Of a DNA stretch of 64,000 nucleotides, positions 9,764 to 61,000 are shown in pieces (the first letter of the stretch is position 1; each line of letters starts with the position of its first letter). Source of the DNA: Mermis nigrescens (taxonomy: Eukaryota; Nematoda; Enoplea; Mermithida; Mermithidae). The stretch covers positions 4,977,893 to 5,041,892 of the forward strand of contig JAVLUZ010000223.1 of assembly GCA_036768485.1 (NCBI GenBank), in the 5' to 3' direction. The notes beneath the pieces are model-generated. The model was given only the letters and a program-made list of their open reading frames with translations. It did no database searches and was not told where the DNA came from. The translations under genes and the position numbers were made by a program.

Positions 9764-11153
9764 TAGTGATGTAAAAGATCATCTGGATCTGATCTTTTTA
9801 TCCAGATTCAGATCCAGATCCAGATAATCTGGATCTGGATCTGGTTATTTTCTGATCTGGTTATCTGATCTGGATCTGTATCTGTTTAGTCAAGATATAT
9901 CTGGTTAAACAGATCAGGAAGTTATTTTTCAGCGATGGTATCCTTTCTGTTTTACGATTTAATGTAGGTAGGTTAGCCTTACATGCACGTGGGGGAGGGG
10001 CGTCTGCTGGAGGTTTTGACCTTTGACCCCCAGTTCCGTGCTACCCTCCTCAGAATGGCCAAAAAGTGCCGCCGACCCTCCATAATTTTTTGGTTTTAGA
10101 AAAATTTTTAAAGCTCTGCAGAAAAGTAACTTGAGTGATAAAAATGTATTAAAGGTTGTTTTTTCACATAAATGATCATCAGAATTGACCTTTGAGAGAC
10201 TTTTTTGCCTAAAAATGGGAAAATTTTGAATTTTTTTTGTCATGTTTAGGACGTCGGAACAGATTGAAAGACACCAATTAAAAAAATATTACCTTGTTTA
10301 AAATTAACCAACATTTTATTTAAATTTGAATTATTTGTTGATTAAAATTGTTGTTGATGTCTGTGAGACAGAAAGGAACTTTCAAATAGTTCGATAAGTA
10401 TTCATGAGTGATTATAATTTTAGCAGCAATGTTTAAAAAAATTGCATTCGTAATTTGGATTAATGTCGTTTTTGTAAAAAGCAGACTACACTGTCTTTTG
10501 GTTGACTCAAGAGTCTAAACTTGTGAGCTTTTACTTTTTAGACAATTTTTACTGATATCATTTTTATGTAAAAGCTCTAAAATGCAAATTTTCCTCGGCT
10601 CTGCCCCAGACCATACGTGGGCAGCAAGAAAATTCTGGGGGGTTCAAGATTTTTTTGAAGGTCGAAAAATGGCCTTAAAAATGGTGGTATGGCGATAAAA
10701 ACACCATTTTTCGACGTTTCTCATCAAGCACTATCCATTGGCATCAAAAATTGCGAAAAAGACGAAAAAAATTTTCAAAAATTGAATTCTGGGGGGGGGG
10801 TATTTTTGATTTCTGGGGGGGGGGTATTTTGGTTTCTGGGGGTGCATACCCCCACAAACCCCACGCCCAGGTGTGCCCCAGACCCCTCTGGGGGCTGTTA
10901 TATTAGTCCCGCCACCCGGGACCCCCCAATCACATGGGTTTGGGCGTTTTACGCCTTCCTTTTTAGCAATACAAATTGCTGCACAAAAAATATTTTTATC
11001 TGGATCTGGATCTTTTTAAATTTTGATCTGGCAAAACGATCTGAATCTGGATCTGGTTATTTTCTGATCTGGATCTGGATCTGCCAGAAAATCTGAACCC
11101 GATCTTAATCTGGATCTGGATCTGGGTAAAAATCTGGATCTTTTACATCACTA
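9764..11153. mobile_element. hAT element, ATCTGG subterminal family
   Basis: The 1390-bp element has ends TAGTGATGTAAAAGATC and its inverse, and an exact 8-bp duplication ATAGAGAC at 9756-9763 and 11154-11161. The first 150 bases and last 160 bases are filled with ATCTGG repeats, mostly on the same strand in both arms, with one reversed block near 9805-9825. The interior has no convincing transposase frame, and a MITE sits at 10612-10875. It belongs to the TAGNGATG-ended group described under findings. Confidence 0.93.
10612..10875. mobile_element. hAT-like MITE, CATACGTGGGC family
   Basis: It starts CATACGTGGGC and ends GCCCAGGTGTG, with an exact 8-bp duplication CCCCAGAC (10604-10611, 10876-10883). 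It is the same family as 1674-1921 and is nested inside the ATCTGG hAT. Long G runs near 10790-10830 are part of the family consensus. Confidence 0.9.
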
Positions 11154-11758
11154 ATAGAGACACACATTTTTGCACACAGACATCTTAAAAATCGATTATA
11201 TATTCAATTTTCACGCTTTCACGTATGCATAAACATCAGTGCATCATAAAAAATGCTAAAATCAAGCTTTCCCTCATAAATAAATGATAAATATAGGCCG
11301 CCGCGTCCCACCGCGTGGCAAAAGTTTGAACAGTGTTCAAACTTCAATTTATCTGCCACGCGGTGCCGCGTGGTGCCGCGGGGCGGTGCTGCTATACTTC
11401 CACGCGGCGCCGCGTTTGGAATTATAGCAGCACATTTTGTCAACGCAGCGCCGCGCGGCGCCGCGCGGCGGGAAGTATAGCAGGGCCTCAATACTGGAAT
11501 TCTTTTAAATCACAACGAATGTTCTAGATTACGATAAGCGGTTATGCATAAAATAATTACTATTATCATATACTTAACTCTATGTTACCGGACAAGTATC
11601 TTATTGTTTTTTAATATTGAAAATTAGGGAAAAGGTGGGAAGACCGAAGGCATAGCCCACAGTGCACTATCGTAGATAGCTACTAGTATTGGCTATGTAA
11701 GTGGCTACCGCGAACTGCTAAGGCAAGTTCGCCAAAACGTGTAACTCTCGTAGTTACA

Positions 11759-14064: not shown

Positions 14065-14478
14065 TAGGGATGGACCGGGTCCACGGACCCGGACCCGGAC
14101 CCGGCACTACCCGATGATTTCCTTGGATCCGGACCCGGACCCGGACCCGAATTTTTTGAGATTGAAGACCCGGACCCGGACCCGAAATTTTTAAAATTGA
14201 AGACCCGGACCCGGACCCGGACCCGGACCCGATCTTTCTAATTATTTCGGACCCGAGTCAAATAGAATTTGACTTAGCAACAGTCTTTTGCCAATAATGA
14301 AAAACAATTGCCATTTCAAAAATTTTATTTGCCACTTCGAATAACACTCACATCAACATTCTGAGTTGTACTTCCGTTTTGAATTTCTTTGAAATTGTAC
14401 TTAACAACAACAACAACAACAACAAAGATTTATTGCAAAACGTACAAGACATGGTAAATTTTATTACTAACCCCGAAC

Positions 14479-15236
14479 CACTGTTTTTTTTTAGCGCGGC
14501 GCAAAGGAAACCCGCCCTGCGCTAATGGGACATTTTGTTCATTAGCGCCATGCGCAAAGGCTTTTTTGGGCAAAAAATTAGAAATTTAAACATTTTATAT
14601 TGCATTTTGATTTAAAAATTTTTAAAATTTTTTCGGCGCTTGGCGCCGACTTCTTAAGAATGAATTAATTGTGTTTGCCAACCACCGCTTTCCTGTTTCA
14701 TCATAAGCGAATCCCTGCTTTAGCATCTTTGCAGTAATGAATCCTTGTTTTTGTGGTGCATGGTGCCAAATCAATTGTTTTCATTTTAAATTTATCTTTG
14801 AAATAGCCCAGCCTTGAGATACACATTGAGAAGATGCCAAAATTTCGGGCGCTTTGCATCTAATTATTGGTTTCTGTATAGCGGTTGCATTTTGCAATAC
14901 ACGAAAATTGAGTGCAAACTGCAAAGACAGCTTGAAGAAATCGCTCAGTCTAGTATAGGCAAGGCAATGAGAAATCAGGTATCAAATTGATATTTTTACC
15001 ATTAGATTTCTTGTTCGAGTTGGAACCAGTAGTAAGAATTTTTTAAATTTCTTGCCAGAATTTATTGTCAGTCAGCAGTACATGGAGCGCATCAGAAGTT
15101 CAAAAATGCCCTTATTTTTGCCTATCGCCAAGCATTTAAAGGTTTTTTGGTGCGCTAATGAGAAGCTCCAGCGCAAACGCTCTATCCTGGCCATTAGCGG
15201 CCGCGCAAATGGGGGTGGCGCTAAAAAAAATCCCTG
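14479..15236. mobile_element. hAT-type element with T8-AGCGC ends
   Basis: The 758-bp element has ends CACTGTTTTTTTTTAGCGC and, inverted, CAGGGATTTTTTTTAGCGC. It is flanked by the exact 8-bp duplication CCCCGAAC (14471-14478, 15237-15244). The uninterrupted target, with one CCCCGAAC followed by TGAAGAAGTTCG, is present nearby at about 13890. The GCGCTAATG and GGCGC words near both ends are repeated inside. No ORF of known type. Confidence 0.9.
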
Positions 15237-15720
15237 CCCCGAACTGAAGAAGTTCGAATTAAGCTTTTCCGTCTTTCCATGCAAATGACGCCTGTTCGGC
15301 TGGTATATAAGTCCGGCTCCGCTAAACAGCTGTTCCGAAGGAACACTTGTTGCTGGTGATGAGAGAAACTTGCGTACGGCAGAGACCGGGTAATTTTGGT
15401 AATGTCTATAAACTAATTAAATTTTATCTTTTTTATTTGAAAATTAATTATGCACGGTCAAACTGATTAAAATGCTGAAACAAAACAATGCAGTGTAATT
15501 GTCAAGCATTGAAGTAACTGCTTGCCGTAATATGACATTGGGTAAAAAATGGCACATGGCCAATCACAAGTTTTCGTGAGTTAAAAGATTTACTCCCATT
15601 TCAATAACATCAAGCGAATCGTATAACAGTAAATAAAGCACTTTGAATGCACACAACCAATAAAAAATTATACAAATTGCACACTACATTCTTATGCTTT
15701 AACTCTTCTGTAGTTGTCCT

Positions 15721-15893
15721 CAGTGGCGGATCTAGGATTTTTCTAAGGGGGAGGGGCGGAACCCTGACTTAGGCGGAAAAATTAGCCGTTTTAACCCGAA
15801 AATTGCTAAAAATCGCTCAAAAATGCTTAATTTTGCGCACTATTTTAGGCCTATGGGGGGGGCGGCCGCCCCCGCCCCCTAAACCCGCCCCTG
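15721..15893. mobile_element. hAT MITE, CAGTGGCGGATCTAGG family
   Basis: 173 bp, starting CAGTGGCGGATCTAGG and ending CCCGCCCCTG, with exact 8-bp duplication GTTGTCCT (15713-15720, 15894-15901). It is nested in the GGACCC hAT. A longer relative is at 21245-22286 and further copies are near 17990-19032 and 37378-38256. Confidence 0.9.
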
Positions 15894-16478
15894 GTTGTCC
15901 TCGTCTTATCCGCGCATTTTGCTCACATAGTCTATCAGCTACAACTTGATCTAAATTATGTGTCTATTTAAATTGCCAAAAATTTTGTGTCAGTGCATTG
16001 TGGTTTTGGAAATGTGCACTTCTACAAGATGTGTTGGACCCGGACCCGGACCCGGACCCGGTCGGGTCTAGCTTTGTGGACCCGGACCCGGACCCAAAAA
16101 TTGGAAAGCTGCAGACCCGAACCTGGACCCGGACCCGGACCCGAAGTTTTAAAATGTTGAGACCCGGACCCGTACCCGGACCCGAAAAATCCAAAATTTT
16201 GGACCCGGTCCATCCCTAATATCTATATCTACTAAACATGTGTTGCGCTTCTTGTTTTAGTTAGGCCCATGTTCGCAATGTAAAACTTGATTTGAAAGAA
16301 TAAATAAATAAAACTGTTTTGTGAATTTCATCTTTCATCTGCCTATAAATAGAATGAATTTCTTTTTTGCATTGTCCCATTTGGTAAAACACTTACCGGA
16401 CTACAGAACGGTGCGCCAAACGTTATTATAATTAATTATGAATAACGAATTTATCTTCGATTTTCTAATCATACAAAG

Positions 16479-17549
16479 TAGAGATGTGCCGGGGCCGCTC
16501 TTTTTGCCGGGGCCGGGGCCGGGGCCGGGGCCGGAGCTGGAGCCTGGCCGGGGCCCGTACAAAACATATACCCTATACTTACTAAGCTATATCAAGCATC
16601 CACATTATTTCCATACTGACCTAACATCTTAGTGTTACTATTGTAAGCAATCACATATTGCTTTAATGAATTAAAGACTTAAAAATAAGCAGATAAAAGA
16701 GAAATAAACAAAAAATTAATAAATAATTGTGAATATAGCTGTTAGGCATAGAAAACAATAAGCTAAGCTGAACAGAATATGACTTTTCTATAGTATTTAT
16801 GCTGATTCGATGAAAGAAATAGACGAGCAAAACAGTACAATACAAAAGACTACGATTACATTGCACGAGAAATAAGTAACCCAGAGATTAACTACACGCT
16901 TGAAAAACTTATCTCTAGAATATCAACAAAATCATAGGGGCGAAAAATGCTTGTACGATGAAAAATCATTTACCAAGATTAGGGAAGATGCATAATGAAA
17001 TTAAAATAATATTTAAAAAATTAATTGAAAACCACACAAAAATGAAGACATTTGCTCTATTATTTGGCGCACAGCGCCCGAAATTAGTGAAAAATCGCAC
17101 ATATTAAAGCAAACGAATTCTATCTGGATGATAAAATAAGTTGCCATACCCTAGCATTTTTTAAGGTACATAAGTACATACATCGATTTATAAAACAATT
17201 TTACAGACACTGGTGAAAGTCCCTTGCATTTTAAACTTTATTGTCCAAGAATTATCGGTCAAACGTGCTTATTTCCGCAATAAAAATTGTTAATTGAGCT
17301 AAGCTATTAAAGCATGCATCGAATTGTTTCTATGCTCACTCAAATCTTGATTATTATATTACCTGAAGCGAAGCACAACAGTAGCCTAAGCTTAATTTTA
17401 ACGAAATTTAGGTTATTTTTGCGAATAAATAAATATTATGTTGCGTAATTCGGCAAAAACGATTAATTTTGTTCGATTTTCATTAATTTTTCATCGTTTT
17501 TACAGGCCCCGGCCCCGAGGGCCGGGCGGGCGGGCCTGGCACATCTCTA
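16479..17549. mobile_element. hAT element, GGGGCC subterminal family
   Basis: Ends TAGAGATGTGCCGGGGCC and an imperfect inverse finishing GGCACATCTCTA; exact 8-bp duplication ATACAAAG at 16471-16478 and 17550-17557. The GGGGCC array is at 16487-16550 and a shorter CCCCGG array is at 17503-17538. The 950-bp interior is AT-rich with no recognised protein. Confidence 0.92.
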
Positions 17550-17557
17550 ATACAAAG

Positions 17558-20014: not shown

Positions 20015-21091
20015 CTAAACTTAAGAATATTGTACTTTTAGAAAAGGAGCAAAACGAATGTGGCATGCCTAAGTTGTTTTGCCAAACTGGTAGAACATGA
20101 TAAATTGGAGCGTGGAAAAAAATTTGGTGAAAATCTGAGCTGTACTTGCAAAGTTGCAGGCAACTCTCGATTTTGAGTGTTGTGTGGGACGATTAAACGG
20201 CGCTGATCCAAGAACTTACACACTTGTCAGAAATAAATAATATGGGCTGAAATTACGGAAGGAAGCATAGCAATGAAGGAGAAAAAAGAAAAAAGGCGCG
20301 GAAACCTGTTCGAAATTTTAAAAAACTTGAAAAAATCATATTTTTCTGCATGTTTTTTCGGTTTTACATGATAAGATATACGAAAATCTAAGTTTTTGCT
20401 TCTATTATACTTGGGTTTAGGCGTAGTATATCTGGAAAGGTGTTTGAAGCTGCTTAGGTCGAGGTCGCTCCCGCCTCAGGTCGATGTATAGATGCTTAGA
20501 TCGATGTATAGATGCTTAGATCGATGTGGCTAAACTTTACTTTATGGTGTGAATGGAAAATTTGCAGATGTATGTGGAAAGGAACGATTGGCCAAAATGA
20601 GGAGGACAAGCAAAAGGAAGTGCGAAAAAAAATTTCATGGAAAACGGACATATATTGGTGAAGATGAAGTCACGGTACTTTACTTTGTCATAAATGCACT
20701 CAGATGGCAGGCAATGTGAGCGAGAATATGAATGTGGATCTGAGGTGTTTCAAAAAGTAGGGCATCAGGAAAAGTCTGTGGCGATGTGAGCAAAAACAAT
20801 TGAACAAGTTACTAGGGATGTGCCGGTTAACCGGAACCGGCTGGAACTGACCATTTTTTTGGAACCGGAACCGGAACCAAGAACCGACTTTTTGATTTTT
20901 CAAGAACCGGAACCGGAACCGGAACCGATTTTTTGATTTTCTAAGAACCGGAACCGGAACTGGAACCGATCTTTTTGGAGTCGGTTATCGGTTCTTTAAA
21001 AGTAGAGTTAAAAATCGAACTTCATAAAATTTAGTGAAGACATGAAGCAGCAATTCAATCTTTTATTACCCAAAAGTTTGCAGATTAAAAC

Positions 21092-22400
21092 TTAGTATGC
21101 AAATTTTGTTTCGGGTAAATTATATTTTAAAAATAACAGTCGTTCTGCTTTTTTGCCATGTAGCCTGTTTCTGAGAAGGTCGTAAATGATTCTAGCGCAA
21201 CTGAACAGCTGTTCCGATGGAACACTTGTAGCTGGCGCTGCAAGCAGAGGCGGATTCAAAAAGGGGCGGGGGCGGCCGCCCCCATTGGCCAAAAATATTT
21301 GGCGAGATAAAGAATGGATACCTATGCCATTTGCAATGATTTTTGGCCGTCAGTGACCATAATTTCTCAAATTTTTCCGGCGCTACGCGCCGTATGATAC
21401 CTATTAATGACATTTATTTACTTTCTTGGCGACCTGAAGCCATTTTCTGTTCATGTAGGTTTTAGAAGCAGCAGAAACATCCATTTTTGAATAGTTTTCT
21501 TCTATTTTCAATTAAAAAATTCGATCTTTCGCATCAAATGCTATAAATACAGGAAATCAAGCAGTAAATCATGCTTCTAGACGTCCGTCCGCCTTAATTT
21601 CACAAATTTTCCGGCGCTTTGCGCCACGGTCAAAGATTTTTCCCGATGTACAAAGACTTTTCGGGACCGTCTTTGTACATGTACAAAGATTTTGGAGAGA
21701 CAAAAATTACAAAAAAGGTTCAAAATTCGCAGAAATTTACGGCGCTTTGCGTTGAAATGAGTGATTGTGTGTTCTATTTATCTTTATAATGGCAGAAATT
21801 GCATTTCGAAAGGAAAAATGTCAAATTTTTCGGCGTTTCGCGCCGCTTTAAAACGATTCTTAGTGATTTTTGCCCTTAGAGACCCATAAATTGGCTAAAA
21901 TACACTACCAAAAGTCGGACAACTCTGTTTTAACCACACTAAAATCGCCACTGTACCATATTATAGTACCCGAAAGTTTGTGTGTACACAATGTATAAAG
22001 ACTTTTGGGGATCATCTTTGTTCATGTACAAACGGACCTTGTACAAAAAAAACACTGCTTCGCGCCAGATTTTTGTAAAAGTCAAAGAATTTTAGTGATT
22101 CTTTACGCACAAAGTTGTCGAAAATTTTAAAATTTTAAGAAAAAATATTGCGTCAAAAGTGATTTTATGTAAAAGTATACATTGTAAAACACCAAAAAAC
22201 GCTGTTTCGCGCTCTGGACCTATTTTTGACTGTTTTTGGAAAAGTTGGGATACCGCCCCCTTAGGAAAATCCTAGATCCGCCACTGGCTGCAAGATACTG
22301 CTTAGCTATAGACGCGAGAATCGGCAAATTCTTCGACTTCTCTTTCCACCATTGCAGCAGATCTTCGTCATGAATTAAGCATTTCGATTTAGTATAAGCC
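21092..22400 (-). pseudogene. hAT transposase C-terminal fragment, split
   Basis: The minus strand from about 22400 to 22295 reads DEDLLQWWKEKSKNLPILAS, the conserved D-L-WW-P-L-A stretch of hAT transposases. After the nested element, 21244-21092 continues [15 protein letters not shown] and on to [14 protein letters not shown], which is the hAT dimerisation domain (A-PATSxxSExxFSxA...). The rest of the transposase, including the catalytic DDE and BED regions, is absent. The second family copy (58246-58400) keeps the same fragment without the insertion and reads SGAG after LF, closer to the family consensus. Remnant of an autonomous ancestor; not functional. Confidence 0.88.
21245..22286. mobile_element. 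hAT-type element, CAGAGGCGG family, nested in transposase fragment
   Basis: 1042 bp, starting CAGAGGCGGATTCA and ending CTAGATCCGCCACTG, flanked by exact 8-bp duplication GCTGCAAG (21237-21244, 22287-22294). The paralogous hAT at 58360-58375 shows the empty site with one GCTGCAAG. It contains three GGCGC hairpin variants (near 21378, 21612, 21832) and the palindrome CTTTGTACATGTACAAAG (near 21680). Confidence 0.95.
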
Positions 22401-23351
22401 TCCAGTTAATAAACACATAGATAATATTCAGTGATTTAAAGTAAATTGTCAACTAGACATAAAAGTTGTTTGAACGTGCAGTTGCCAGATTGAAACAAAC
22501 GACTTTCTGAATAATTTATCTTTCGATTACATCGTCATACGTTCCGGTGAAGTCAGGCCATCAATAGCGTACATACTTTAACACAGGAACCGAGAACCGG
22601 AACCGGAACCGACGGTTCTCTAGTTGAAGAACCGGAACCGGAACCGACGGTTCCAACTTACGCAAGAACCGGAACCGGAACCGGAACCGAAGTTCTCGTT
22701 TTCCAAGAACCGGAACCGGAACCGATTTTTTCGAAAAACCTGGAACCGGAACATCCCTACAAGTTACTCCGGATATAGCTACATTAAAGTGGAGTATATT
22801 TGACAGTTTACCAAAGAATGTTCCGAATTTGGGCTAAAATCATATTCAACTGACATTTTCAAGTTGCTGATTACGAAAAAATGACTTTTTATTGTGCGGA
22901 AAAAAATTTTTGTTCTAAAATTTTTAAATTTGAAAAAACAATTTTTAGCATGTCATTTTACTTGATAAGATATGTAAAAATTCAAGTTTCTGCTAAAATG
23001 ACGCTTAAGCTTAGGCTTAGTGTATCTGAGAAGGTGATTTCGGCTGCTAAGGTCGAGATTGCTCCCGCTCAGATCGAGGTATAGATGCTTAGGTCGATGT
23101 ATAGATTAGTGATCGACCGGGGCGACTTTTTGGCCGGGGCGGGGCGGGGCGGTACCGGGGCTGAAAAAATTCGCCAGCCGGGGCTGGCCGGGGTCAGACA
23201 AGGAAAATATTATTGCATGACACATACTTGGGGTGGGCATGGGAAAAGAAATAATGAGTGACTGCTCCATTCAGTAGTAAATGGCAAGCGCAAAGTTAGG
23301 TGCGCCTTTTCATATCAAGTTTTATTACTATTTATGTCACAAGAAACAAAT

Positions 23352-23475
23352 TTAGTCCAGTGTTTTATTATCTGAATCATCAATAAAGTCTATGTCGCTG
23401 CTATTAGCACACACTATATCATTTAAATCTTCGCTACTGCTGCTGTAGTGGTTGGATGCAATAGGTATTGGATGT
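23352..23475 (-). pseudogene. Possible acidic C-terminal tail of a hAT transposase
   Basis: A short minus-strand frame inside the element reads NHYSSSSEDLNDIV then DIDFIDDSDNKTLD and a stop. It is acidic and Ser-rich and lies near the element end, where the transposase tail would be. No catalytic motif is seen, so this is a suggestion only. Confidence 0.3.
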
Positions 23476-23740
23476 AATAAATGATACATCACACATTCCC
23501 ATAAGGGGGAGGGGTATTACCCTCTCAGGGTCTGAGCACAAGTCACTGTCAGACGATTTTTGGTGTAAACCTTTAGAATTTTTTGAACTTAATTTTTTAG
23601 TATGGCAAAAGTGTACCTAACTATTAGAATTTCACGAAGTGATACATTATTTTAGAATGTGAGCTAGAGTACCTAAATAGATAAAGTATCACTAAAAAAC
23701 ATGCATGTAATCGCTTAAAATTTTATGATGGTCCATCAGT

Positions 23741-23963
23741 ATACATGTAACGGCTGGAAATCTAGGGTAGGGGTCCCTCGCGATTTTTAGAAGGAGGGGT
23801 GTGAGCGAATAAATCAAAAATAGTGAAAACACAGAAAAATAGCCAAAAAAGTGCAGTTTTTCGCCAAAAAATGGGGAAGGTGGTCAAATATTTTCTGACT
23901 TTCAAGGAAGTTCGGGGCTTCAAAGCGTCGATGGGGATGGCCTAAACCCCCTGTCACATGTAT
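23741..23963. mobile_element. MITE, ATACATGTAACGGCT family
   Basis: Starts ATACATGTAACGGCTGGAAAT and ends CTGTCACATGTAT. Other members: 29750-30187, about 33890-34110, 35586-35824, 36583-36799, 39054-39252, 49273-49503, 51110-51298, 52523-52746 and 57444-57675. Each has C-rich and G-rich halves and the words AAAAACACCTAAAA or GGCCGTTTTT. Length about 200-240 bp. Confidence 0.75.
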
Positions 23964-26334
23964 ATTTCTCGGCCATTTTCAGAAGTGGGGGGTAAGCGGC
24001 CCCACTTTGCAGCCGCAAGGAATTCTACACCTTTTTACAGTTTTTGTTCTTCAAAAATCTTTGTACATGTACAAAGAAGGTCCTCAAACATCTTTGTACA
24101 TCAGCAAAAATCTTCGCCGAATAGAAAAAGACCGTGCTTCTAAATGTGATAATTCGGCCTGAATTTAGTTGATAATATTAGTTCGGCGCGGAGTGCCGAA
24201 ATTTTTATGAGCTTTTGATGGAATTCACACTTAGAACTCGACTGAGAAGCTAAAATAACTTGTACTACAAAATCAGAAATATTACAAAAAATGTAATAAG
24301 CGAATTAAATTTTGTAACAAGCAACACTGCGCTTAGAATGGAAAAATGGAAAAATGTCAAATATACAGAAACCTAAAAATTAGCCAAATACACTACTAAA
24401 GGTTGAAAAACTATGTTCTACCACACTGAAATCGTTACTGTACCATATTAAAGTATACAAAAATTTGCATGTACAAAACAGTGTTTTTTTGTATTAGCCA
24501 AAGATATTTCTCGATGTACAAAGACTTCAGGACTATATTTGTACATGTACAAAGATTTTTGGGAAGATAAAAACTGTAAAAAGGTGTAAAATACCAAAAA
24601 TTTTTCGGCGCTTCGCTCCATGTGAAAAATTGTCTGTCCTATATATCTTTAAAATGGCAAAATTTGTATTTAGAATGGAAAAATGTCACAATTTTAGGCG
24701 CTTTGCGCCGTTTTGAGACAATTTTAGTAATTTTTGGCGTTAGAAACCCAGAAATTAGCTAAAATATACAATCAGAAGTCGAAAGACCCTGTTTTACCAC
24801 ACTAAAATCGCTACCGTACCATATTATAGTAACCACCAATTTGTGTGTACAAAATGTACAAACACTTTTGGGGACCATCTTTGTACATGCACAAACGTAC
24901 CGTGTACAAAAAAACACTGGTACAAAATGTACAAAGACTTTCGGGTATTATAATAAAAAGGTAAGTTGTACAAAAAAACACTGTCACATATTGATAGTAT
25001 GCGAAAATGTGTATGTTTAAAAATATATTTATATAATATAGCTACAAAAATTTGTTAGCTCATACACAGACCTTTTTGGAGATCGTAACAAGAAGCTCGT
25101 ACAACAAAATAGAGTCGGCCAATAATAGTCCTCCACTTGATTTTCTGGTCCTCCAAATTGGGATTTCACCCTCCCTTAACTCTGGACCTTAGGAAACTAT
25201 TTGAGACATATTTAGTTTATCGGATCGGACGCAATTCTGCAGCGTAGTTTACATTCGCCTATAATTAACCTCCGTCCTATTAACTATTACACAAGAAACG
25301 CGTTTTAAAGCATGCGGTTCCCATTCAATTGAATGTAAATGTGTTCTTTGTAAAAATAGTTTGTTGAAAACGTACAATTTCCAACTAGAAATATAACGTA
25401 TATGTCAACTCTAAATCTTTTAGCCATAGCTATGAATGAATGAGTTAAAAGTAGCATTTAGTTTAAATAAGTCAAGTGGAGGAATCGAAAACATGCAGAT
25501 TTTCCTGAAAATTTATTCAGTAAAAGCTCATTTATACACAGTAGCAAAGTTATAACAAGGACTAAGTAAGTATACATATGGTCTAATCAGTACAGTTCTA
25601 AGAATTAAGACTTGCTCATTAATAAATAAGTGCCATTATCACAGCCTGTACAAAACACGAATTACACTAAATTTTTCCCCGGCCCCGGCCATTTTTTGAC
25701 CTTGCCCCGGCCGGGGCTGGGAATGCTAAAAAATGGCCGGGGATTGCCGGGGCCGGGGCCCCGGTCGATCACTAGTATAGATGCTTAGGTCGATGTGTAG
25801 TTGCTCAGGTCGATGTATAGATGCTTGGGTCGACCTAAATTGGGTACATGTTATTCTGCATTCCACTGTTTGAATCTTCAAATGGATGGAACTATGAGAT
25901 AATCCAAATATGCTGTTTGAATCGTATTTAAGTAGAAATCTTTAAGTGGATGTAAAAAATGCTAAAAATAGTAAAATTAAAAAAAAATTTCTTGAAATTT
26001 GTGCAAAAAACACAAAAACTTTTTCTTCAATCTTGGTTTCCGTGCAGTATAACTTAATTTTTTGTAATCTGCGACCTTGAAAATGGTAGAAAAATATGTT
26101 TGTAGTAAAAATTGGAAACTTTTGATAACCTGCTAAAATTCCTAAAAGTGGCTCAATATGGTGAATGGTCGAAGTATGATGGTTGAAGTACCGTAACTGT
26201 GAGTTTTGTATGGATTTGGTTTATATCTTTTTTCCGCGTCTTTCAGTGATACAAAGTATCGTTTTTGCGCAATCGTATGGCAATTCTGCCGGAATGGCGC
26301 AAAATCGCTTCACACCATATTCTTCAAAAACTCC

Positions 26335-26470
26335 AATCGATGTATAGATGCTTAGGTCGATGTATAGATGCTTAGGTCAATGTATGTATAGATGCTTAGG
26401 TCGATGTATAGATGCTTAGGTCGATGTATAGATGCTTAGGTCGATGTATAGATGCTCAGGTCGACGTAAA
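26335..26470. repeat. 20-bp minisatellite GATGCTTAGGTCGATGTATA
   Basis: About seven tandem units. Shorter runs of the same unit are at 20485-20535, 23080-23106 and 25775-25845, and the inverse unit is at 27795-27985. It belongs to the TIR element spanning 20015-26712. Confidence 0.9.
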
Positions 26471-28441: not shown

Positions 28442-28690
28442 AAATTTTTGAGCTTAGTCTCTACTAGTGATGCACCGGTACCTCATTTCCAGCCGGTACC
28501 GGTACCGTAACCGGTACCCTGGTACCGGCGCCGGTACTGGTACCGGTACCAATATGTATGTTATGTAATATGTATTGTGTACTTATATACTAGTGTTCCA
28601 TCTGATGTGTTTGGTCTGGATATTGTTCCTAGGAACAGTTTAAATACTTTTTACTACTATGTTACTTACTTAAAATCGGTTTTTACAGCA

Positions 28691-29073: not shown

Positions 29074-29133
29074 CTGCACCTTCCTATTAATTCGGAGGAA
29101 TTTATTGGTGGTCACTGTTCATTATGTCGGTAA

Positions 29134-39960: not shown

Positions 39961-40081
39961 ATGGCAAGTAGACAAATGTCGACTTCCCCTTTGCGGAAAT
40001 TCGTCGACGCGAAAAACCGAATAAATGTCATATTTGGGGAAATAGAAAAATACGTTCAGGATGCGGTCAAGCTGTTACGTG
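39961..40081 (+). CDS. Mfn: Mitofusin exon 1
   Basis: Encodes [20 protein letters not shown] and on to [10 protein letters not shown], matching the family N-terminus (SPLKxFVxAKKxIN...). Ends phase 1 at a G|gtgagc donor. Confidence 0.9.
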
Positions 40082-43000: not shown

Positions 43001-46000
43001 AAATAGACTGTAATGTCGATATTTGGCACGAAGCGTCGGAAATATTTCAAATTTTTGTTGAAAAATGCGCAAAAAGCGTTATAATTACTATCATTTTGCC
43101 CAAAAACGGCTTTGTACGCTGTGCAAAGATGGATCCAAAATCTTAGTACAGGCCTCAATATCTTTGTCCCACAATCTTCGTACCTATTCGTAATTCATTT
43201 TCCTTCGAAGAAACAATGTATGTAACTTAATACTGTAACTGCGCATGCAACTTAAATCCAGGTAGTGTAAAATATACATAGTAGGTATGCTGTTTTTTCA
43301 AGAACAAGCAATGGAAAAAGCACGGTGATAAATGCAATGCTGCATAGTAAGATTCTGCCGTCTGGCATGGGGCATACGACGCGTTGCTTTGTTCAAGTGG
43401 AAGGGTCGCTAGACAACTCAAAAGCAGTATTGACCGAAGATTCGGATGAAATGAAAAGCATTGAAGTAAATTGACTTTTTTTATAAGTTCTTTATTCTAT
43501 TTATGCAGAAGAAGCAAGATACGTATGTTTAAGGGCAAGGTCACGTATTATAAATCTAGGATCAAACATTTCTTTATCTCAAGCTTATTCGCAGCGAACG
43601 TGATTTTCAACTTGGTCTTTTTTGAATTTTTTGATTTTTCCATTCTATCTTCTAGCCATTTTTCGCTGCGATGTGTGTCCTACTATCCCCTTCAATAGAC
43701 CCAACCACTCCCAAAATTTTACAACAGCTAAGTGCGACATAAATCATGCTTTTTTGGTTGTACTACTAGGTATCTTGCTTGTTTGTACATGTAAAAGTTT
43801 TTGTAAAAGTTATGTAATGTACAAATTTTTTGTAAAAATGTACAAAACCTAAAAGTCTTTGTACATTTTGTACACACAAATTTTTGGGTACTATAATATG
43901 GTACAGTAGCGATTTTGGTGTGGTAAAAACAGTTGTTCGATTAGTAGTAGTGCATTTTAGCTAATTTCTAGGTTTCTGAGGGCAAAAATCATTAGGAGTC
44001 GTCTTAAAACGGCGCGAAGCGCCGAAAAATTTGACATTTTTCCTTTCAAAATGCAATCTCTGCTATTAGAAGGATATATAGGACACAAAATTACTCATTT
44101 CGGCGCGAAGCCCCGAAAATCTTTGCGAATTTTAGACCCTTTTTCCAGTTTTTGTCTTCTCAAAAATCTTTAAAGATGTACAAAGACGGTCCTGAAAAGT
44201 CTTTGTACATCGTAAAAAATCTTTGCCGAATACAAAAAAACCGTGATTCACATCTGGCAATGCTTCCTCAATTTTAGATGTTGGATGGAGCGAACGAGTT
44301 GTATCTTCTGCTTCTGTATGTTATGTTTTTTGCTTATTATGTTCTTATACATTTTTATGCAGATATCTTTTAAATAAGTTTACAATTTTTCATTCCAAAA
44401 GTCAGAAGTTAGACGGGACGCAAACAGGTCGTTTGAACAGGACACTGAAAAATCTAACTTTTAAAGCCGGGAACAGTGACTGTACAAGAACATTAGGCTA
44501 GGAAAAACCATCCTTCAAAGCTGGAAACCCATTTTTTCGATTAGGACGATCACTTTTCTAAGATGAACAACCACTTTTTGAAGCAGAAATATTTTCGAAC
44601 CCGGGCAGCCATTTTCGAGCTAGACATTAAGCAATTATTTTTGAACCAGAGCACCCAAGCTTCTTTATTTGGAGGTTGGATCTGGGCAAATCACTAACCA
44701 TTGCCTAGATCCAGATACATTTGTATTATTGAAGAAAATTCAGAAAACAAGCTTGAATAAAGCTGAGAAAACTCGGAAGTTGATCCCGTATTGTTTTTCA
44801 TTTCATTTAATCAACGCCTTTTTAAGTCACTCGATAGCCTGGCGCACGCATTACGCTCAAAAGAAATGGGCGAAGACAGTTTGGTACGCATTCTGTGGCC
44901 CAAAACCGATTCAAAATTACTTCAAAATGAAGTCGTTTTACTTGATAGGTAAAATTTGTAAGTTTCGCCCTAATTTTAATTTTCAATTCTAAATTTTTAT
45001 TATGTCCAACCAATGGGCTAATAATTTTTTTGACTGGAGACATTGTCAAAAAGGGTACATAAAAAACACAGTAATGAAACGCAATGCATATACTACTAGG
45101 TTTAAACAATATCAAAGTGGGGTGTGAACAGATTGTTATAGCGCATGAACTGCAGGCCAAAATTTTTTACATGGTTCGGACAAGCGTGTCCGGAGAATTG
45201 CTCGCCAGCAATTGCTCGACAGCAATTGCTCGGCAACGATTGCTCTCCAATAATTGCTCGCTTAGCAATTGCTCGCCGTACCATTGCTCGCCCAACAATT
45301 GCTCGCGGAACAATTGCTCGCCGAAAAATTGCTCGCTTAACAATTGTTCGCCTAGCAATTGCTTGCCGGACGATTGCTCGCGGAACAATTGCTAGCCGAA
45401 AAATTGCTCGCTGAACAATTGCTCGACTAGCAATGGCTCGCCAGATAATTGTTCGCGGAACAATTGCTCGCCGAGCAATTGCTCGCCTAGCAATTGCTCG
45501 CCCAGCAATTGCTCGTCAGACAATTGCTCGCGGAACAATTGCTCGCCTAACAGTTGCTCGCCAATCAATTGCTCGTCCAACAAATGCTCGCTAATTACTT
45601 GTCAAGCTTAACTCGGTTTAGTTACGCTTGCTTTCCAAAAAGTGTTATTCTATTTATTTAAATCATTAGCGTTACAGGGGAGATTGGGTGATGGATTCCG
45701 CAACCAGAGTCAGCCCCCGATCTCGCCCCATCACAAGATTTAGGCGGCAAATTGCATTTTCAGATTATTTGTAGATGATGTTTGTTGTTTTTGAGCAAAA
45801 ATTTGCGGCTACACTATGTATATAATTTTGAGCCATTACATTTATGATCTAATTGTCCGCAAGGAATTTTATTGCACTTAGCGGCTCATAAATGTAATGG
45901 CTCAAAGTTATGGATGCTGGAGACAGCTGCCTATCTACGGTGAAGGGTAAATGGCCTTCAATTTTGGCTCAAAAATACGAAGAAGAGTCATCTAAAAATG

Positions 46001-49000
46001 GCCTAAAAGTGCAATGTTTCGCCTTTTGTGGTGAGGCGAGATCGATGGACGGCTGACTTTGACTGAAGAATCCGGCACTCAATCTCCCCTGTAACGCGCA
46101 CGATTTTAAATAAATAGAATAACACATGATGAATAGCGAGCATGTTAATTCATGTAAGTGAGTTAAGCTTGACAAGTAATTGGCGAACAATTGCTGGGAA
46201 GCAATGTTGTGGCGAAGCGATTGTTCGGCGAGCAATTGTTTGGCGAGCAGTAGTTCGGCGAGCAATAGCTAGGCGAGTAATTGATAGGCGAGTAATTGTT
46301 CGGCGAGTAATTGTGCTAGGCGAGCAATTGCTTAGGCGAGCAATTGCTAGGCGAGCAATTGCTAGGCGAGTAATTTTTCGGCGAGCAATTGTTTGGCGAG
46401 CAATAGTTCGGCGAGCAATTTCTAGGCGAGCAATTGCTAGGCGAGTAATTGTTCGGCGAGCAATTGTTTTGCGAGCAATTAGCTCGGCGAGCAATTGCTA
46501 GGCGAGTAATTGTTCGGCGAGTAATTGTTCGGCGAGCAATTGCTAGGCGAGCAATTGTTTGGCGAGAAATAGCTAGGCGAGCAATTGATACGGCGAGTAA
46601 TTGATCGGTGAGCAATTGTTCGGCGAGCAATTCTTTGGCGAGCAATATTCGGCGAGCAATTGCTAGGCGAGCAATTGATAGGCGTGTAATTGTTCGGCGA
46701 GTAATACTGCGGCGAGCAATTGTGCGGCGAGCAATTGTTTGGCGAGCAATTGATAGGCGAGTAATTTTTCCGCGATTACTTGTTCGGTGAGCAATTGTTT
46801 GGCGAGCAATTGCTTGGCGAGCAATTGCTAGGCGAGCAATTGTTAGGGAGCAATTGTTGGCGAGCAACTTTCCAGTGATCTCAAACAAGGACATTTTCAT
46901 CTATTTTTTTGAATGGCTCTAATAAGGAGATTTTTGTCTATCTACTGAAACTCGTTTCAAAGTTTTTGTTCGCATTAGCTCATTTTATGGTTTAATATCA
47001 GGTGTAGACTTATTTATGGCCCACCCTGTACATTGTGGAATAAATTAAAAATTCGGTTGTTTTTCTGTTAGACTGGATTGAAGGTACAGCATTGGGTTTT
47101 TTGCTTGGTGGGCATTTAAAGTTTTAAGACGTTTTTTTAAACGTCATCAATGCCTCCGCACTTTACTGCTGTTTTTTGTGATTGTGAAATTTTTAAAAGA
47201 TTTTTATCTGAATTCACCAATCAGAATTTTATATTCTCTGGTGACGATTATACACGATCTGGAGGGGATGGGAGTTAATTGTCCCAGAAAAATTTCACAG
47301 CCCCTCCAGAAATTCCCGCTCCAGAATTCGCGATTTTTCGAAAGTTTTTATAAAATTTGCTGAAAATTCGTAGAACAGGTGCTTTTTAAAGCGTTTTTAG
47401 CTAGGTATCTATTTGTTCAAAAGTGTCAAATTTCCGGCGCTTCGCGCCATACTCTTATGTATTGACTATATTTGTTCAAGTTATTCGACTTTTTGAATCT
47501 TTTTAAAATGTGTTTATGCTCTAGAAAGATAGAGGATCGTCAGAAACGCCGAAAAGATGTTTTTGACGCGTAACCACCATTTTTTGGCCCTAAAAAGGCT
47601 CTTTAAAATTTCACATCCCCCAGAATTCCCATGCTGTGCATGTCTGGTGACGATGGACTGTTATATTTTGAATTGCTTTTGGACTTTATTATGCCTTCTG
47701 GAGCGAAATTATAAAACACGATGCCTCTCAGATTTAGAATCTGCTCTAGCTATTTTTTAAAGTGCTCCATCATTTTTTATAGCCCTGGCATAGATGTATC
47801 TCCTCAGTTCGACATTTGGATAGATAAACATTGCTTAGATGCCGACGTTTTCGTCTTAGTTTCCAATGCAGAATCTACTTTGACGCAAACGGTAAGCGAT
47901 CGAATTGTTTGTAAAACTTGTATGACTCTGTGCATAGGTATTTTTATATATTATATGAGACGTATTTTCAACTTTCCGATTATTCGATTATAAAAGCTAC
48001 CTATTTCATAATGTTTTCGTCTATTTCGTCATCTGTTTTTTCTGCTTTTTCATGACCCTTATGATATATTTCGAAGCGTTGTCTTTAGCCAGTGACGACA
48101 ACGGTACATATTTCTATCAGAAGCTCTTATACAAATGCATCATTTTACGTACATACAAGAAGTACTGAATTCCGAAATTAAGTTTAGCTAGGTTTCTAAT
48201 TATGTATAATAGCGGGCAAGAACTAAGACAAATTGAAAGGAAAGCATATATACATACAGTGCTCGCCACGAATGTTGACGCTCTAATATGCTTCACAGGA
48301 TGATAGAGCTTGTTAAAGGATGTATGGTTAACACATGTGTCATGCGTGGGCGGAAATAGGACCGACGTGTTAAAGATACATCTTGTAACAAGCGCTATCA
48401 TCCTCTGAAGCATATTAAAGCGTCAACTTTCGCGGCGAGTAGTGTAGGTCTCGTACCCGTGTCTACGACACTTATGTATGTTGGTACATTTAAATTTTGG
48501 AAGGAGAAAAGTAGAAACTTTAGTTTGGCGACCGTTCGTCTCCTTGTTAAACGTGCGGTTATATGCATAATGTGACAGTTCGTTAACTACGTTTACAATT
48601 TATCGGACAATTTAAATTTTTTGTCGTTTACACTGAATGGTACGGAGTATACATAGGAATGCAGTGAACCCTACTTCTTATAAGCTATCAAAAATAGGTT
48701 GAACAAAACTTGCATTACACGTTTTGCGTCGTTCATATGTATAATAGTTGAGCAACCAATTTCCTCGAAGTAACGAATTAATTACATAAGTCCGAAATCT
48801 CCAAAAGAATACGCATAATTTTTATAGTGAAAGTAGAATAAGTGGCTAATAATGGTTAAAGGTACATAAATTATTTTTTCAAAGAAAGTGTTGTATTATG
48901 ATTCTGTTACAATGTGCAGATCGAAAAAACAAGATGCGCTTAGTTCGCTTGGTATGGTCCATCTGCTGACATATACATATAATATTCATATGCATGGTGT

Positions 49001-55000: not shown

Positions 55001-58000
55001 CGATTAAATGCTGACGGAACGTTTTCTGCATTATTTTTGAGGACAAAATGTCGAAATTTTTCCACTTTTAAGTAATTTACATATATCAATTGACATCAAA
55101 AAATTGCGAAAATAACAAAAAAAATTTCAAAAATTGAATTGGGGGGGTGGTATTTTGGTTTCTGGGGGTGTTTTAATTTCTCGGGGAGGAGGGGTGCATA
55201 TCCCAACCCCCCCCCCCCGGCCGACACTGACTTTGTGCATGTGTGATTTGCATCGAGGCTAATGACTTTGTCTGAAAATCTTTAGGTATTCTAATTTGGT
55301 TCTTTGACGATTTCGAAAGTAGTTTTAAAAGGGTAATGAAATAAATAAATTAGATCGAAAATTTTCAATTAAAAACTAATTCATAACAAAATATTGCCTT
55401 TTTCGATATTTTTTGTCGAAAATAAATTTCTCGCCCTCCAGACAAAAAGAACTTGAAACGCTCAAGGCCTGAATTTTTCAGTTGCGAACAAAATGCTGTG
55501 ATCATTATTTCAGGAGCTCTTAAGTCACGTGGATCAAGTTCTAACTGACGAATTGCAGCTCAGATGCACGGGTGGTTTGCTGCAGGGAATAACGGGAAAA
55601 GAGAAAGAAATGGTGGGTAAGTAAATTATATGCTGATATTTCTTTTTTTTCAAATGCATAATTTGTAATCATTGAAAATGCTTGATGAGAAGACATTATT
55701 TTGTCAGCGCATCAATAGACTCAGCCGTATCCATAGGTGGGCAGCACCGAAATTCTGAGGGAGGGGGGTGAAAAAATTTTCAAAGGTCAAAAAATGGTCT
55801 TAAAAGTGGTTGTATGGCGAAAAAACACCATTCTTCGACGTTTCTCATCGAGCACTATTCAATGGCATCAAAAAATTGCTAAAAAAGCAAAAAAATTCAA
55901 AATTTGAATTTTGGGGGGTATTTTGATTTCTGGGGGGGTATTTAATCTTATGGGGGTGCATACCCCCTCCCCAAACCCCCACGCCCACGAGTAGTCGTAT
56001 CCATAATAAGATCGTTGTTTTTTTTTCAAAAAACACCTTTGTAGTTAATTTGAATTTTTTAAAAACTGCGAATTTCAATGAAATGGATTATAACATTGGT
56101 TCAGTGTCCATGTGTCATATATGCAGGTGTGATATGATATTAATTTTATCGTTTTGCCTTGTAATTTTCAGCATACTTAAGCCGATTTGATTTCAAGCCA
56201 AGGCTAAGGCTGCTAATTAAATTGCATTAATTAACTTCTTAGTTGATGAAGCATTGCATTGAAACTTTAGAAAATCGAACGAAATTAATTCAATAAATTT
56301 GAATGGTGCACCGCACCGTACGCAGGAATATCTCATATATCGATGTCTCGCGTTTTTACCTGTTAGCTTATCTATGTACTTAGTCGGAGGTTTAAAATCG
56401 GCCGTCTGCTTTTTCTAAAGTTTATTTGGTCGGAGTACAAACATAAAACACTTCTAGTCTATAAAAACGAAAGAAAAAGTGCATAAATATATACATAACG
56501 AGCTAACTCGCAAAACTATGAATGAGCATTACATATGTACGAGTATGTACAAGTTATGATATACACTTTACGTGTGTATAAGTTGTCCGAAATCAGCGTC
56601 TATTTTTTCGAAAAATTTTAATATTCAAGAATCAATGATACATTAAGGTGTTTTGACTGCTACTTAAGTTATTAAAATTCTTTTGATCTTGATTGGATTC
56701 GAGTTTTGATGCAGGATTTTATCTTTTTTTGAACGACAGCTTAAAATTATTAATTTTTTTAAATGAAAATTGTGCCATCAACTTTTCTTTAGGCCAAAAG
56801 TAGAGCTTAAACTAGAATCATATGTGTAGCTAAGTACCTACATAGTTATGGATATATATTCTTATAAAAAAGAAAAATTGAGTAATTTTGCGAAACTTGT
56901 CTAGCACCTACACGCAGACATGCACAGCATGGGAACTTTGCGGGGGTGATGAAATTTTAAAGTGCCTCTTTTGGACCCAAAAAATGGTGGGTACTAGGGA
57001 TGTGCCAGTGTCGAACCTTTAACTGTCCGTGCCTTAAAGTGTCCGGCCGGACATTTTAAGGCACCTCAAAGTGTCCGGCTCTGCCTTAAAGTGTCCGGGT
57101 TACGCTGAGTATACGTACGCATATACGCCCACGCATATCACTCGCTGTACAATTAGGTAAGTAGGCATGTACATATATGCGTACCTTGTACAATGTATTG
57201 AGGTACATAAATACAAGCAAGCCGATGCATTACGAAGAATTCGTTGCATCGTCAGTGGCGTCGTTTAGCGAACTTGGAGATAAAATCGATTATAAAAATA
57301 ACTTTCGTGAGGAACAATCGGCGATATTTACGAATTTCAGTCATAAATGTTGTGAATTTAAACTGCACACGGTTCCATTCACTCATGATTCTAAAAAGAC
57401 ATGCTAAGACTTCATTTTATATATTGCCTACCATGCTACCATTCATACATGTAACAAGGGGGTGGAGATTCCCATAACCGAAGTCGTAAATGTAAAAATA
57501 TAAATTTAAATAAACATAAATTGTTTATTCCCCTCTCCCCGATTTTGTGCAAAAACTTGCGATTTCTAGCCACTTTAGGTGTATTCTTTCAATTTTTGAA
57601 TAAAAATTGAAGTTCGCGCACTCCCCCTAATGGTCGGCGAACCCCCACCCAACACTTTGGGCTGTTAAATGCCTGCTACTTTACATGGGCAGTGGGCCAA
57701 ATTCTGGCAGTCAGATGGAGCATAACTGCAAAAAACGCTAAATTATTCAATTCTACGGATCTACCAATTTGGAGAGACTTTGGATTTTGGGTGTTCAAAC
57801 CCTATCCTTTTACGTCTACGTATGATGCCCACTCTATCCCAATGTTTAAATACATTTTTTTCTCGCTTTTAAGCACGTTATTGTGGCCCGGACACTTTAA
57901 GGTAAACCTGGACACTTTAAGGTACCTTAAAGTGTCCGGCCGGACACTTTAAGGTGCCGGACACTTTAAGGTGTGACACTGGTTAACCGGAAACGGAACC

Positions 58001-61000
58001 GGCTGGAACCGACCATTTTTGGAACCGAGAACCGATTTCTTGATTGTCTCAGAACCGGAACCGATTTCTTGATTTTCAAAGAACCGGAACCGGAACCGAT
58101 CTTTTTTGGAGTCGGTTATCGGTTTTTTAAAAGTAGAGTCAAAAATCGAACTTCATAAAATTTAGTGAAGACATGAAGCAGCGATTCAATCTTTTATTAT
58201 TACCTAAAAGTTTACAGATTAAAACTTAGTATGCAAATTTTGTTCCGGGTAAATTATATTTTAAAAATAACAGTCGTTCAGCTTTTTCGCCATGTAGCCT
58301 GTTTCTGAGAGGGTCGTAAATGATTCCAGCGCCACTGAATAGCTGTTCCGATGGAACGCTTGTAGCTGGCGCTGCAAGATTCTGCTGAGCTATAGACGCG
58401 AAAATGATATAATATTTTATTCAAGAAACACATAGATAATATTCAGTGATTTATGAGTAAATTGTCAACTAGACGTAAAACTTGTTTGTACGTGCAGTTG
58501 CCAGATTGAAACGACTTACTGAATAATTTATCTTTCGATTATATCGTCATATGTTACCGTGAAGTCAGGCTATCAAGAGCGTACATACTTTAACACAGGA
58601 ACCGAGAACCGGAACTGGAACTGGCGGCACTCTAGTTGAAGAACTGGAACCGGAACCGGCGGTTCCAATTTACGCAAGGACCGGAATCGGAACCGAAGTT
58701 CTTGTTTTTCAAGAACCGGTACCAAATTTTTTGAAAAACCTGGAATTGGAACATCCCTAGTGGGTACGCGTCAAAAACATCGTTTTTTGGCGTTTCTAAC
58801 GATGCTCTATCTTTTAAGAGCATTATAAGGCTAAACAAATTTTAAAAAAATCGATAAGTCGAACAAATTGAACGAAATATACATGGTCAAAACCTGAGTA
58901 TATGGCGCGAAGCGCCGAAAAGTTGACACTTTTGAGCAATTATATAGCTAAAACGCTTAAAAACCACCCTTTCTACGAATTTAGAGGGAAATTTGAAAAA
59001 TCGTGAATTCTGGGGGATGAAGAAATTTCTGGTGGTGAAAATTGGGGGTGGGTGGAAACCCCGCAAAAACACCCCTTCACCAAAGATCATGTTTGCCTAT
59101 ATGTAACGTTCTTTCACTTTTGCATTATCATTTTCGGTCGTTTGTTTTTACTTCGCAGGCCATGCAGCTGCTTTTTTACCACCAAAGTACGACGCACTCC
59201 GCCTGTCACTCTTGCAACACCGCGAACCGTTTAAATTCGCCTTTGCTTTACATTGTCATTCTTTGTTGAGCGATTTTCAAGAAGATCTGCGATTCAGTTT
59301 TTCATTAGGGTTGCATCGCCTTGTGTCCAAATTTATGCAAGTCAAATATCCTGCGCCGAACGATGTTTCTCAACGCATCTCTAAAAACGAGCCGGATTTG
59401 TTTAGTTCAGCATCATTGGTTAATTTTTTAGCTTTACTGTAGTCAGACAAATACATGTTCATAGGGAATGGTTGACCCCCAATAATGGCTGCCGACCATA
59501 TAGGTGGGCGACACCAAAGTTCTGGGGGAGGGTGCAAGATTTTTCAAAGGTCAAAAAATGGCCTTTAAAATGGTGGTATGGCGAAAAAACACCATTTTTC
59601 AACGTTTCTCATCGAGCACTATCCATTGGCATTAAAAAATTGCGAAAAACGAAAACAATTTTCAAAAATTGAATTCTGGGGGAGAGATATTCTGGTTTCT
59701 GGGGGTATTTTGGTTTGTGCATACCCCCACGCCCACGTATGCTGCTGACCATACATGGGCAACAACAAAATTCTAAGGGGAGGGGTGTCGATGGGGCCTA
59801 AATTGCCAAAAATTGCGCTATAAATTCAATTCTGGGGATCTTCGATTTTTGTGGGTCTTTAGGATTTTGGGGACCAGACCCCTCAGACCCCCACGCTCAT
59901 GTTTGCTGCTGACCCCACCCCCGAAACTGTCGATTCTCCGAAAAAAATTGTAGAAAATATGTTTTTTGAGCGTTGGCTCAAAAGCATCTAGTTAATACTC
60001 ATTTTTTTACAATATTTTGTTGAATTTACTAAAAAGTCTTTTCGAATTTTTCTAGTTTATTAATGTTTACATGTTTTAGAAAGAACGAGCACTTTTTGAA
60101 ACGTCCAAAAACATTTGACGTGTGCAAACGTCAGATTATAACCGATTTTTACTCTTTTGTTTCGTGTTCCTAATCGTCTAACGTGAGCAATACCCCATTT
60201 CGGCCTGTCTGCGGAAAGTACCGAGCCAAAAATTTGACGGGGTTATGTTTTGTGCCGTAAAATATGAAAATCGCACTTCTGCACTTGGACAACGACTTTT
60301 TAATGCTAGACAATCATTTTCCAGACTAGTATTTGAGCCTGGAAATCGGACAACAAGGGCCAGGACGACTATCCTACAAAGCTGGGAAATCTTTTGCTGG
60401 ACCATCACACTTGCACACGGTCCAAAGTTCTGGAAGGGGTCAACCGAATTTCCTTGGGAGGGGGTATGATTAATTTTAGCGGCTTAACGCTGAAGTGATG
60501 ACTTAATGTTGATTTTTTAATATTTTTGACGTCCTTTATCCCCACTTCCCTCATAATGGGTAAAAACTCTCTAATTCGTTGCATGTAAATTACTCTTCTT
60601 GAATATTCGTGATTTAGTTTGCATGAAAACAAATGCTAATAAGAACGATGGAATGACAAATAAATATGTGCAAAAGAATGAACAAGTGTCTTAATGAATG
60701 AATGAACGAAGAGTGTACTACTCGAAATGCAATCCAGATCAAACTACTGGGCATCGTTTGACGCTATTTAGTAATTGCATGCAAGAATAGGTTTTTGTCT
60801 GAATATGTATGCCTTTAAAAAATGCTGGAAGGAGATCCCTATACCCCCAGTGTGCACGTGCTTGGATCATGAAGCGAGTCTTCAAAGCTGGACAGTCACA
60901 TTTTCGACCGGGAAAAGTACCTGTCGAAGCTGGGCAATCGGTTGTTGAACCTAAACAACCATTTTCAATCTGGACATTGGAGGGCAACCACTCTTTGACC

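Follow-up and report, generated by a model that had tools for sequence, protein, structure and literature searches.

Families of hAT-type transposons in a Mermis nigrescens contig carry different hexamer arrays behind near-identical tips

The DNA analysed here is a 64,000-nt stretch of Mermis nigrescens contig JAVLUZ010000223.1 (the window), repeat-rich and with a GC content of 38%, in which we studied eight insertions of hAT-type transposons, called E1 to E8. Behind their tips these elements carry six classes of repeated hexamers; the two ends of an element agree in class, each class is nearly exclusive to its own elements, the arrays have a describable layout, and relics of hAT and BED-type proteins lie inside some of the elements. 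We consider it likely that the hexamers serve each family's transposase as sites on which its BED finger docks, and that each transposase gathers mainly its own family.

Pairs of TAGNG[AT]T[GC] tips spaced 100–5000 bp apart were collected and their 8-bp flanks compared. Among the 37 end pairs, seven had no flank mismatch, one had a single mismatch, none had two, two had three, one had four, and 26 had five to eight. An earlier reading of the letters alone (the original prediction) had named eight hAT-type insertions with 8-bp target-site duplications (TSDs), and the search among these pairs returned them, seven with exact TSDs and one matching at 7 of 8 positions. All eight pairs end in TAGNGATG except E5, whose tips read TAGTGATC; TAGNGATG occurs 21 times in the window, as compared to a mean of 4.82 and a maximum of 10 in 100 dinucleotide shuffles. 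Terminal inverted repeats are present as well, with 13–16 matches between the first 16 bp of the left and right ends of the seven elements with exact TSDs (E6 is outside that list). The hAT superfamily prefers the target site nTnnnnAn, and the TSDs have T at position 2 in seven of eight cases and A at position 7 in all eight left copies. The predicted T in seven was therefore correct, while the predicted A in all is true of the left copies only: the sole mismatch of E6 falls on position 7, where its right copy has T.

Hexamers were pooled over rotations and over the two strands and counted within the 260-bp ends, the left end of E8 being taken from 57983. The top class is ATCTGG at both ends of E1 (9764–11153, TSD ATAGAGAC), GGACCC at both ends of E2 (14065–16218, TSD ATATCTAT), and GGGGCC at the left end of E3 (16479–17549, TSD ATACAAAG), the right array of which is short. 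E4 (20813–22759, TSD CAAGTTAC) has GGAACC at both ends and is interrupted at 21245–22286 by a CAGNG-ended hAT-like insertion. At both ends of E5 (23107–25774, TSD GTATAGAT) the top class is again GGGGCC, accompanied by a GGGGC stretch of 5-bp period. E6 (26965–31638, TSD ATGCATAT/ATGCATTT) has GAACCC at both ends, and E7 (28465–29603, TSD GTCTCTAC), which is nested within E6, has the palindromic GGTACC at both of its own. Finally, E8 (56995–58759, TSD GTGGGTAC), assigned to the E4 family, carries GGAACC from 57981 onward in partly degraded form.

A 20-bp minisatellite, TCGATGTATAGATGCTTAGG, is found at 20481–20527, 25775–25833, 26337–26468 and 27798–27972; E5 landed inside one of its copies, since the TSD GTATAGAT is part of that unit. 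A dispersed repeat with TTTCTGGGGGGG runs occurs at 1672–1921, 10610–10875, 37413–37675, 55731–55987, 59500–59730 and 62128–62313, its copies being 79–88% identical to the one within E1.

Six classes are thus distributed over eight insertions, and the claim that each insertion has a different array fails: E3 shares GGGGCC with E5, and E4 shares GGAACC with E8. For E5 the predicted GGGGC is present as the 5-bp-period stretch at its left end, while the element mainly carries the GGGGCC class of E3. In E8 a 14-mer ending in GTCCGG had been taken for the array. The window has six copies of this 14-mer (CTTAAAGTGTCCGG, counting both strands), every one of them inside a foreign insert of ~974 bp in the left end of E8 (~57007–57980), so this assignment does not stand and E8 carries GGAACC. 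The insert has inverted ends of ~95 bp (57005–57099 with 57887–57982, 85% identity) built from repeats of a CCGGACACTTTAAG-like unit, splits an E4-type CCGG between CC and GG, and shows no visible flanking target duplication. From 57981 onward E8 matches E4 (86.0% across 421 bp and 87.5% across 353 bp), and without the insert its left end would read like that of E4. Eight separate hexamer families were rejected on these grounds, the 14-mer belonging to the insert and E3 and E5 forming one class.

In 15 of the 16 ends (260 bp) the top class exceeded all 200 dinucleotide shuffles, the exception being the right end of E3. The class was the same at both ends in all eight elements over the outer 80, 100, 120 and 150 bp, and in seven of eight over 200 and 260 bp; at the right end of E3, GGGGCC leads over the outer 80–150 bp and does not over 200–260 bp. 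A class had 11–76 matches in its own ends, as compared to 0–9 in the ends of other classes. When tandem repeats of periods up to 12 were called with TRF, 34 of 39 period-6 arrays fell inside the element ends, which make up 6.5% of the window, whereas periods 4, 5 and 7–12 each had at most one array there. Top-class counts of at least 25 were reached in 14 of 16 ends and in 3 of 423 control stretches, two of these belonging to a microsatellite of AC and the third to a minisatellite with a 15-bp unit.

The ends of E2 hold 26 copies of GGACCC and none of GGAACC, and those of E4 hold 20 copies of GGAACC and none of GGACCC, a one-base difference that is uniform at both ends. Three of the four ends of E3 and E5 have one and the same top class; the two pairs with a common class, E4/E8 and, to go by its similar first spacers, E3/E5, look like members of the same or sister families. 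The original prediction had held that many unrelated hexamers in one family would point to slippage; none were seen in these two pairs, and near-variants, for example GGCACC and GGAACT, occur in E7 and E8. Five of the six classes contain CGG, for which the post hoc chance is 5.6e-4 with equal base frequencies and 1.2e-5 with the composition of the window. Decay of an ATCCGG at its CpG is an unlikely origin of ATCTGG in this copy of E1, the ends of which contain neither ATCCGG nor CCGGAT (0 copies of each).

In E2, E4, E6 and E8 the hexamers stand in blocks of roughly one to five, with gaps between the blocks. Sixteen of the 26 gaps of at least 12 bp in these elements measure 16–18 bp (6 of 7 in E2, 4 of 7 in E4, 3 of 6 in E6 and 3 of 6 in E8). 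Sixteen spacers, picked by eye from the 26 gaps with one 21-bp gap trimmed to 16 bp in place of an 18-bp one, are 76–83% AT, as compared to 62% for the window. Against 2000 single-base shuffles, spacer identity was highest between E4 and E8 (0.65 versus 0.42 shuffled, reached by 0 of 2000), followed by E2 and E4 (0.49 versus 0.40, reached by 4) and E2 and E8 (0.47 versus 0.40, reached by 72); spacers of E6 showed no likeness to those of E2 or E4 (1622 and 1912 of 2000 shuffles reached the observed value). E4 and E8 have unequal numbers of hexamers in their blocks, but both keep spacers of 17 bp.

Although the tips are inverted, the arrays of E1, E2, E4, E6 and E8 run mostly in one direction along the genome at both ends, for example in E2 (73 of 76 and 65 of 66 hexamers one way). 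Direction is mixed at the left end of E1 (29 to 16) and the right end of E5 (16 to 17), the ends of E3 are opposed, and the word of E7 is palindromic. Palindromes within the 30 bp behind TAGNGATG stand out at several tips, their arm being reached in 200 shuffles by 0 at the left tip of E1, 1 and 0 at the left and right tips of E2, 2 at the left tip of E4, 6 at the right tip of E5, 10 at the right tip of E4 (where the arm is an A/T palindrome), and 12 at the left tip of E6.

Remnants of transposase genes were sought by tblastn with 14 transposase queries (E up to 1) and by comparison with Pfam. The hAT C-terminal dimerisation domain (PF05699, cut-off 21.4 bits) was found on the minus strand of E2 (15261–15416, 25.4 bits), of E4 in two pieces (22289–22405, 27.9 bits, and 21095–21244, 23.5 bits), and of E8 (58229–58411, 33.3 bits), and a BED zinc finger (PF02892, 27.6 bits, cut-off 20.6, profile positions 1–38 of 44) on the plus strand of E7 (29134–29361). 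The tblastn search gave a weak C-terminal transposase-like stretch in E6 (31231–31278, E 0.22–0.65), no transposase remnant in E1, E3 or E5, no dimerisation-domain remnant in E7, and no intact catalytic DDE domain in any of the eight elements, only C-terminal and BED remnants being matched; no autonomous copy was found in the window. This outcome bears on the activity of these copies and not on their descent.

A composite query matched 15 proteins at E ≤ 0.001 among 250 candidates; the five of these 15 that have names are, to go by their species names, from three Lepidoptera, one scorpion and one nematode. A profile of eight of these relatives matched six PDB sequences, of which four are transposases, two of them recorded as Hermes, and the other two are BED domains, from ZBED1 and ZBED2; the E7 BED finger used alone found no homologue among proteins or among solved structures. 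Because the hAT and BED domains pass the curated Pfam cut-offs and the profile of relatives matches Hermes entries, we conclude that the elements are hATs: non-autonomous or decayed copies of Ac-like cut-and-paste transposons. The predicted hAT lineage is borne out by the 8-bp TSDs, the short inverted tips, PF05699 in E2, E4 and E8, and PF02892 in E7. At the presumed equivalents of Hermes residues 64–67 and 70, placed by counting backward from the histidine rather than by structural alignment, the eight aligned relatives have six different residue sets (two sets occurring twice), and E7 has a seventh.

How do these ends compare with those of characterised hATs? Ac of maize ends in TAGGGATG. 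That string occurs once in PMC3260210. Ac transposase is described there as binding multiple AAACGG hexamers cooperatively within 200 bp of either end. The likeness to Ac that the original prediction had drawn on is supported: all eight elements have the 8-bp TSDs of Ac (E6 with one mismatch) and hexamer arrays, putative binding sites, near both ends, and the hexamer of Ac, like five of the six classes, contains CGG. In contrast to Ac/Ds, none of the six top classes is AAACGG, the hexamers form pure tandem blocks, and six classes stand side by side.

The left end of Hermes lies upstream of its gene. In E2, E4 and E6, by contrast, the palindrome marks the left end, and with the transposase remnants on the minus strand (weakly so in E6) this end is downstream of the gene. 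Hermes differs further in its motif, AAG(T/C), which is not arranged in tandem hexamer blocks. There are points of likeness as well. According to the accessible part of PMC10368747, the Hermes BED domain recognises a short motif and requires AT-rich DNA after it, its sites lie near the tips, a quasi-palindrome adjoins the left tip, and the base contacts are made by a few residues directly before the zinc-binding histidine. E2, E4, E6 and E8 have AT-rich spacers beside their hexamers, the putative BED sites (in the spacers picked by eye), and transposases related to the remnants in the window match Hermes chains in the PDB. The same source gives Hermes repeats 2–7 of the left end as antisense and 1–5 of the right end as sense; read from the tip inward, these would run in one direction along the element, as the arrays of E1, E2, E4, E6 and E8 do.

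A third comparison is provided by proteins that combine BED and Hermes-type DNA-binding domains, which in the accessible part of PMC8097297 show diverse specificities, mostly with CGG, or with CGC. The hAT-19/CGGBP proteins are of this build and mostly have CGG motifs, like five of the six classes here; in all four cases where a hAT protein yielded a motif in that study, the subterminal DNA of its own element contains matches to it. In contrast to the window, tandem hexamer arrays are not mentioned for hAT-19/CGGBP proteins in that part of the paper.

From these comparisons we propose that strand cleavage would take place at the near-identical TAGNGATG tips, common to all families, while each family's transposase would dock with its BED finger on the subterminal hexamers. 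Tandem blocks, separated in four elements by AT-rich spacers, would favour cooperative binding of a multimeric transposase at both ends. Such an address is plausible because the layout fits the docking sites known from Ac and Hermes, and each transposase would collect chiefly its own family, since its class is all but missing from other families' ends. The binding of these hexamers by BED fingers, and a difference in binding between families, are what this comparison of sequences suggests; family-specific reading is plausible because BED-type hAT proteins vary in preference, five of six classes hold CGG, and the finger residue sets vary. The narrower claim that the two bases after CCGG form the address goes further than the data, which a word made of CGG and three variable bases fits equally well, and E1 has no CGG.

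Several observations weigh against this proposal. Firstly, according to the accessible part of PMC3260210, Ds1 in maize can be mobilised with a single AAACGG hexamer or with none at all, so the hexamers need not be the whole address. Secondly, the left and right ends of the elements share direct repeats of 72–89%, mostly the arrays themselves, and copying from end to end could also yield matching ends. Thirdly, not every end conforms: at the right end of E3 (260 bp) an AT-rich class is ahead by 13 to 11, level with shuffles, and only a short array is present; E5 has one mixed end; E1 lacks the CGG of the other classes; and the palindromes are clear only at some tips, 21–200 of 200 shuffles reaching the arm at the remaining nine (the left one of E8 being taken from 57983, not its true tip). 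Fourthly, the E7 BED finger is a relic in which serine stands where relatives carry the last histidine, so that the fourth zinc ligand is lost.

Of the competing explanations, the one that survives best keeps the docking and gives up the specificity: the fingers would recognise a CGG core, the other bases would hardly count, and families would cross-mobilise. We regard it as unlikely, though well worth weighing. Its first half is common to the explanation we favour and only the second, the looseness, differs. The near-identical tips and the CGG of five classes agree with it, as do statements in the parts of the literature available to us that Ac transposase can presumably interact with sequences resembling its hexamer (PMC3260210) and that the Hermes BED domain binds two related motifs (PMC10368747). 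Loose reading, however, does not account for a one-base difference between E2 and E4 that is uniform over 46 copies (26 + 20), nor for E1 without CGG, and of the 22 proteins for which motifs are given in the accessible part of PMC8097297, the majority preferred 8-mers of their own.

An improbable explanation, in our judgement, is that the arrays are by-products, with slippage expanding a short sequence next to the tip, end-to-end copying equalising the two ends, and families then drifting apart. Some of this must be taken seriously: array length shifts in steps of six between E4 and E8, which differ in hexamers per block, and the direct repeats between ends are what copying would leave. Slippage probably does set block length. 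By itself it is insufficient, since it cannot place one word at both ends, let alone move it to an end 0.7–4 kb away, and agreement between ends could reflect either selection by a common binding protein or copying between them. As by-products, moreover, the arrays would not be expected to hold period 6 in all six classes, with no other period from 4 to 12 enriched in the ends, to keep CGG in five of them, or to stay uniform at both ends while the spacers of E2 and E4 diverged to ~49% identity. That a host protein binds the arrays instead, or that they serve as a promoter, an insulator or a nucleosome-positioning signal, is very improbable: they do lie at both ends, one of which would be the promoter side, and the outer 150 bp have a GC content of at least 0.44 in 13 of 16 ends versus 0.30–0.40 in element bodies, but six different words in one lineage are not what a host protein would be expected to require, a promoter role leaves the same array at both ends unexplained, and the ends of E1 are not GC-rich (0.35 and 0.37 versus 0.38).

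Family-specific docking, if it is the right explanation, may have a history. One picture, which we offer tentatively and would not quite give an even chance, is a radiation within one genome in which the cleavage tip stayed constant while the docking word, CGG with three further bases, was rewritten, re-homogenised at both ends, and read by BED fingers that diverged along with it, giving a natural code that isolates sister families. The wider question is how families that are cut at the same tips avoid moving each other's copies, and a lineage with six docking words present together would amount to a natural experiment on the recognition code of BED fingers. If true, a finger–hexamer code would matter for understanding how transcription factors derived from hATs acquire new targets, and for making hAT gene-delivery tools orthogonal.

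Several hexamer classes behind one hAT tip were not found in the literature among the matches listed, a search whose scope excluded Repbase-type entries and most subscription papers. Four pattern scans of a viral contig collection returned 0, 93, 1 and 0 stretches; the single further match had no array and no second tip. Protein-guided scans found no relatives in viral contigs and one in genome contigs, L001, a distant hAT without TAGNGATG on a contig filed as a bacterial metagenome-assembled genome. The 94 loci formed by the 93 viral-contig stretches and L001 contained no TAGNGATG pair with 0–2 flank mismatches. Rfam gave 0 matches. A reverse-transcriptase piece had 1156 hits, and among the 120 listed the identity was 41–57%.

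Other mobile and repetitive sequences share the window. Insertions at 15721–15893 and at 21245–22286, the latter in E4, are hAT-like elements of another kind, with tips CAGNGGCGG, exact 8-bp TSDs (GTTGTCCT and GCTGCAAG, respectively); no period-6 array was found inside them. At 24479–24919, within E5, lies a stretch with CAGTGTTTTTTTGTAT-like inverted ends (15/16) and an exact 8-bp TSD, GTACAAAA, related copies of which occur elsewhere in the window. Two 15-bp minisatellites, at 45196–45591 (AATTGCTCGCCGAAC) and 46211–46867 (GGCGAGCAATTGTTC), are mutual reverse complements, and the sole ARAGORN tRNA call (46773–46863) falls inside the second and is probably spurious. Frames of a retrotransposon of the long terminal repeat (LTR) type occupy 337–5459, comprising one of 347 residues, whose matches include reverse transcriptase and RNase H domains, and an adjoining one of 1093 residues; a second fragment resembling this retrotransposon lies at 7117–8008.

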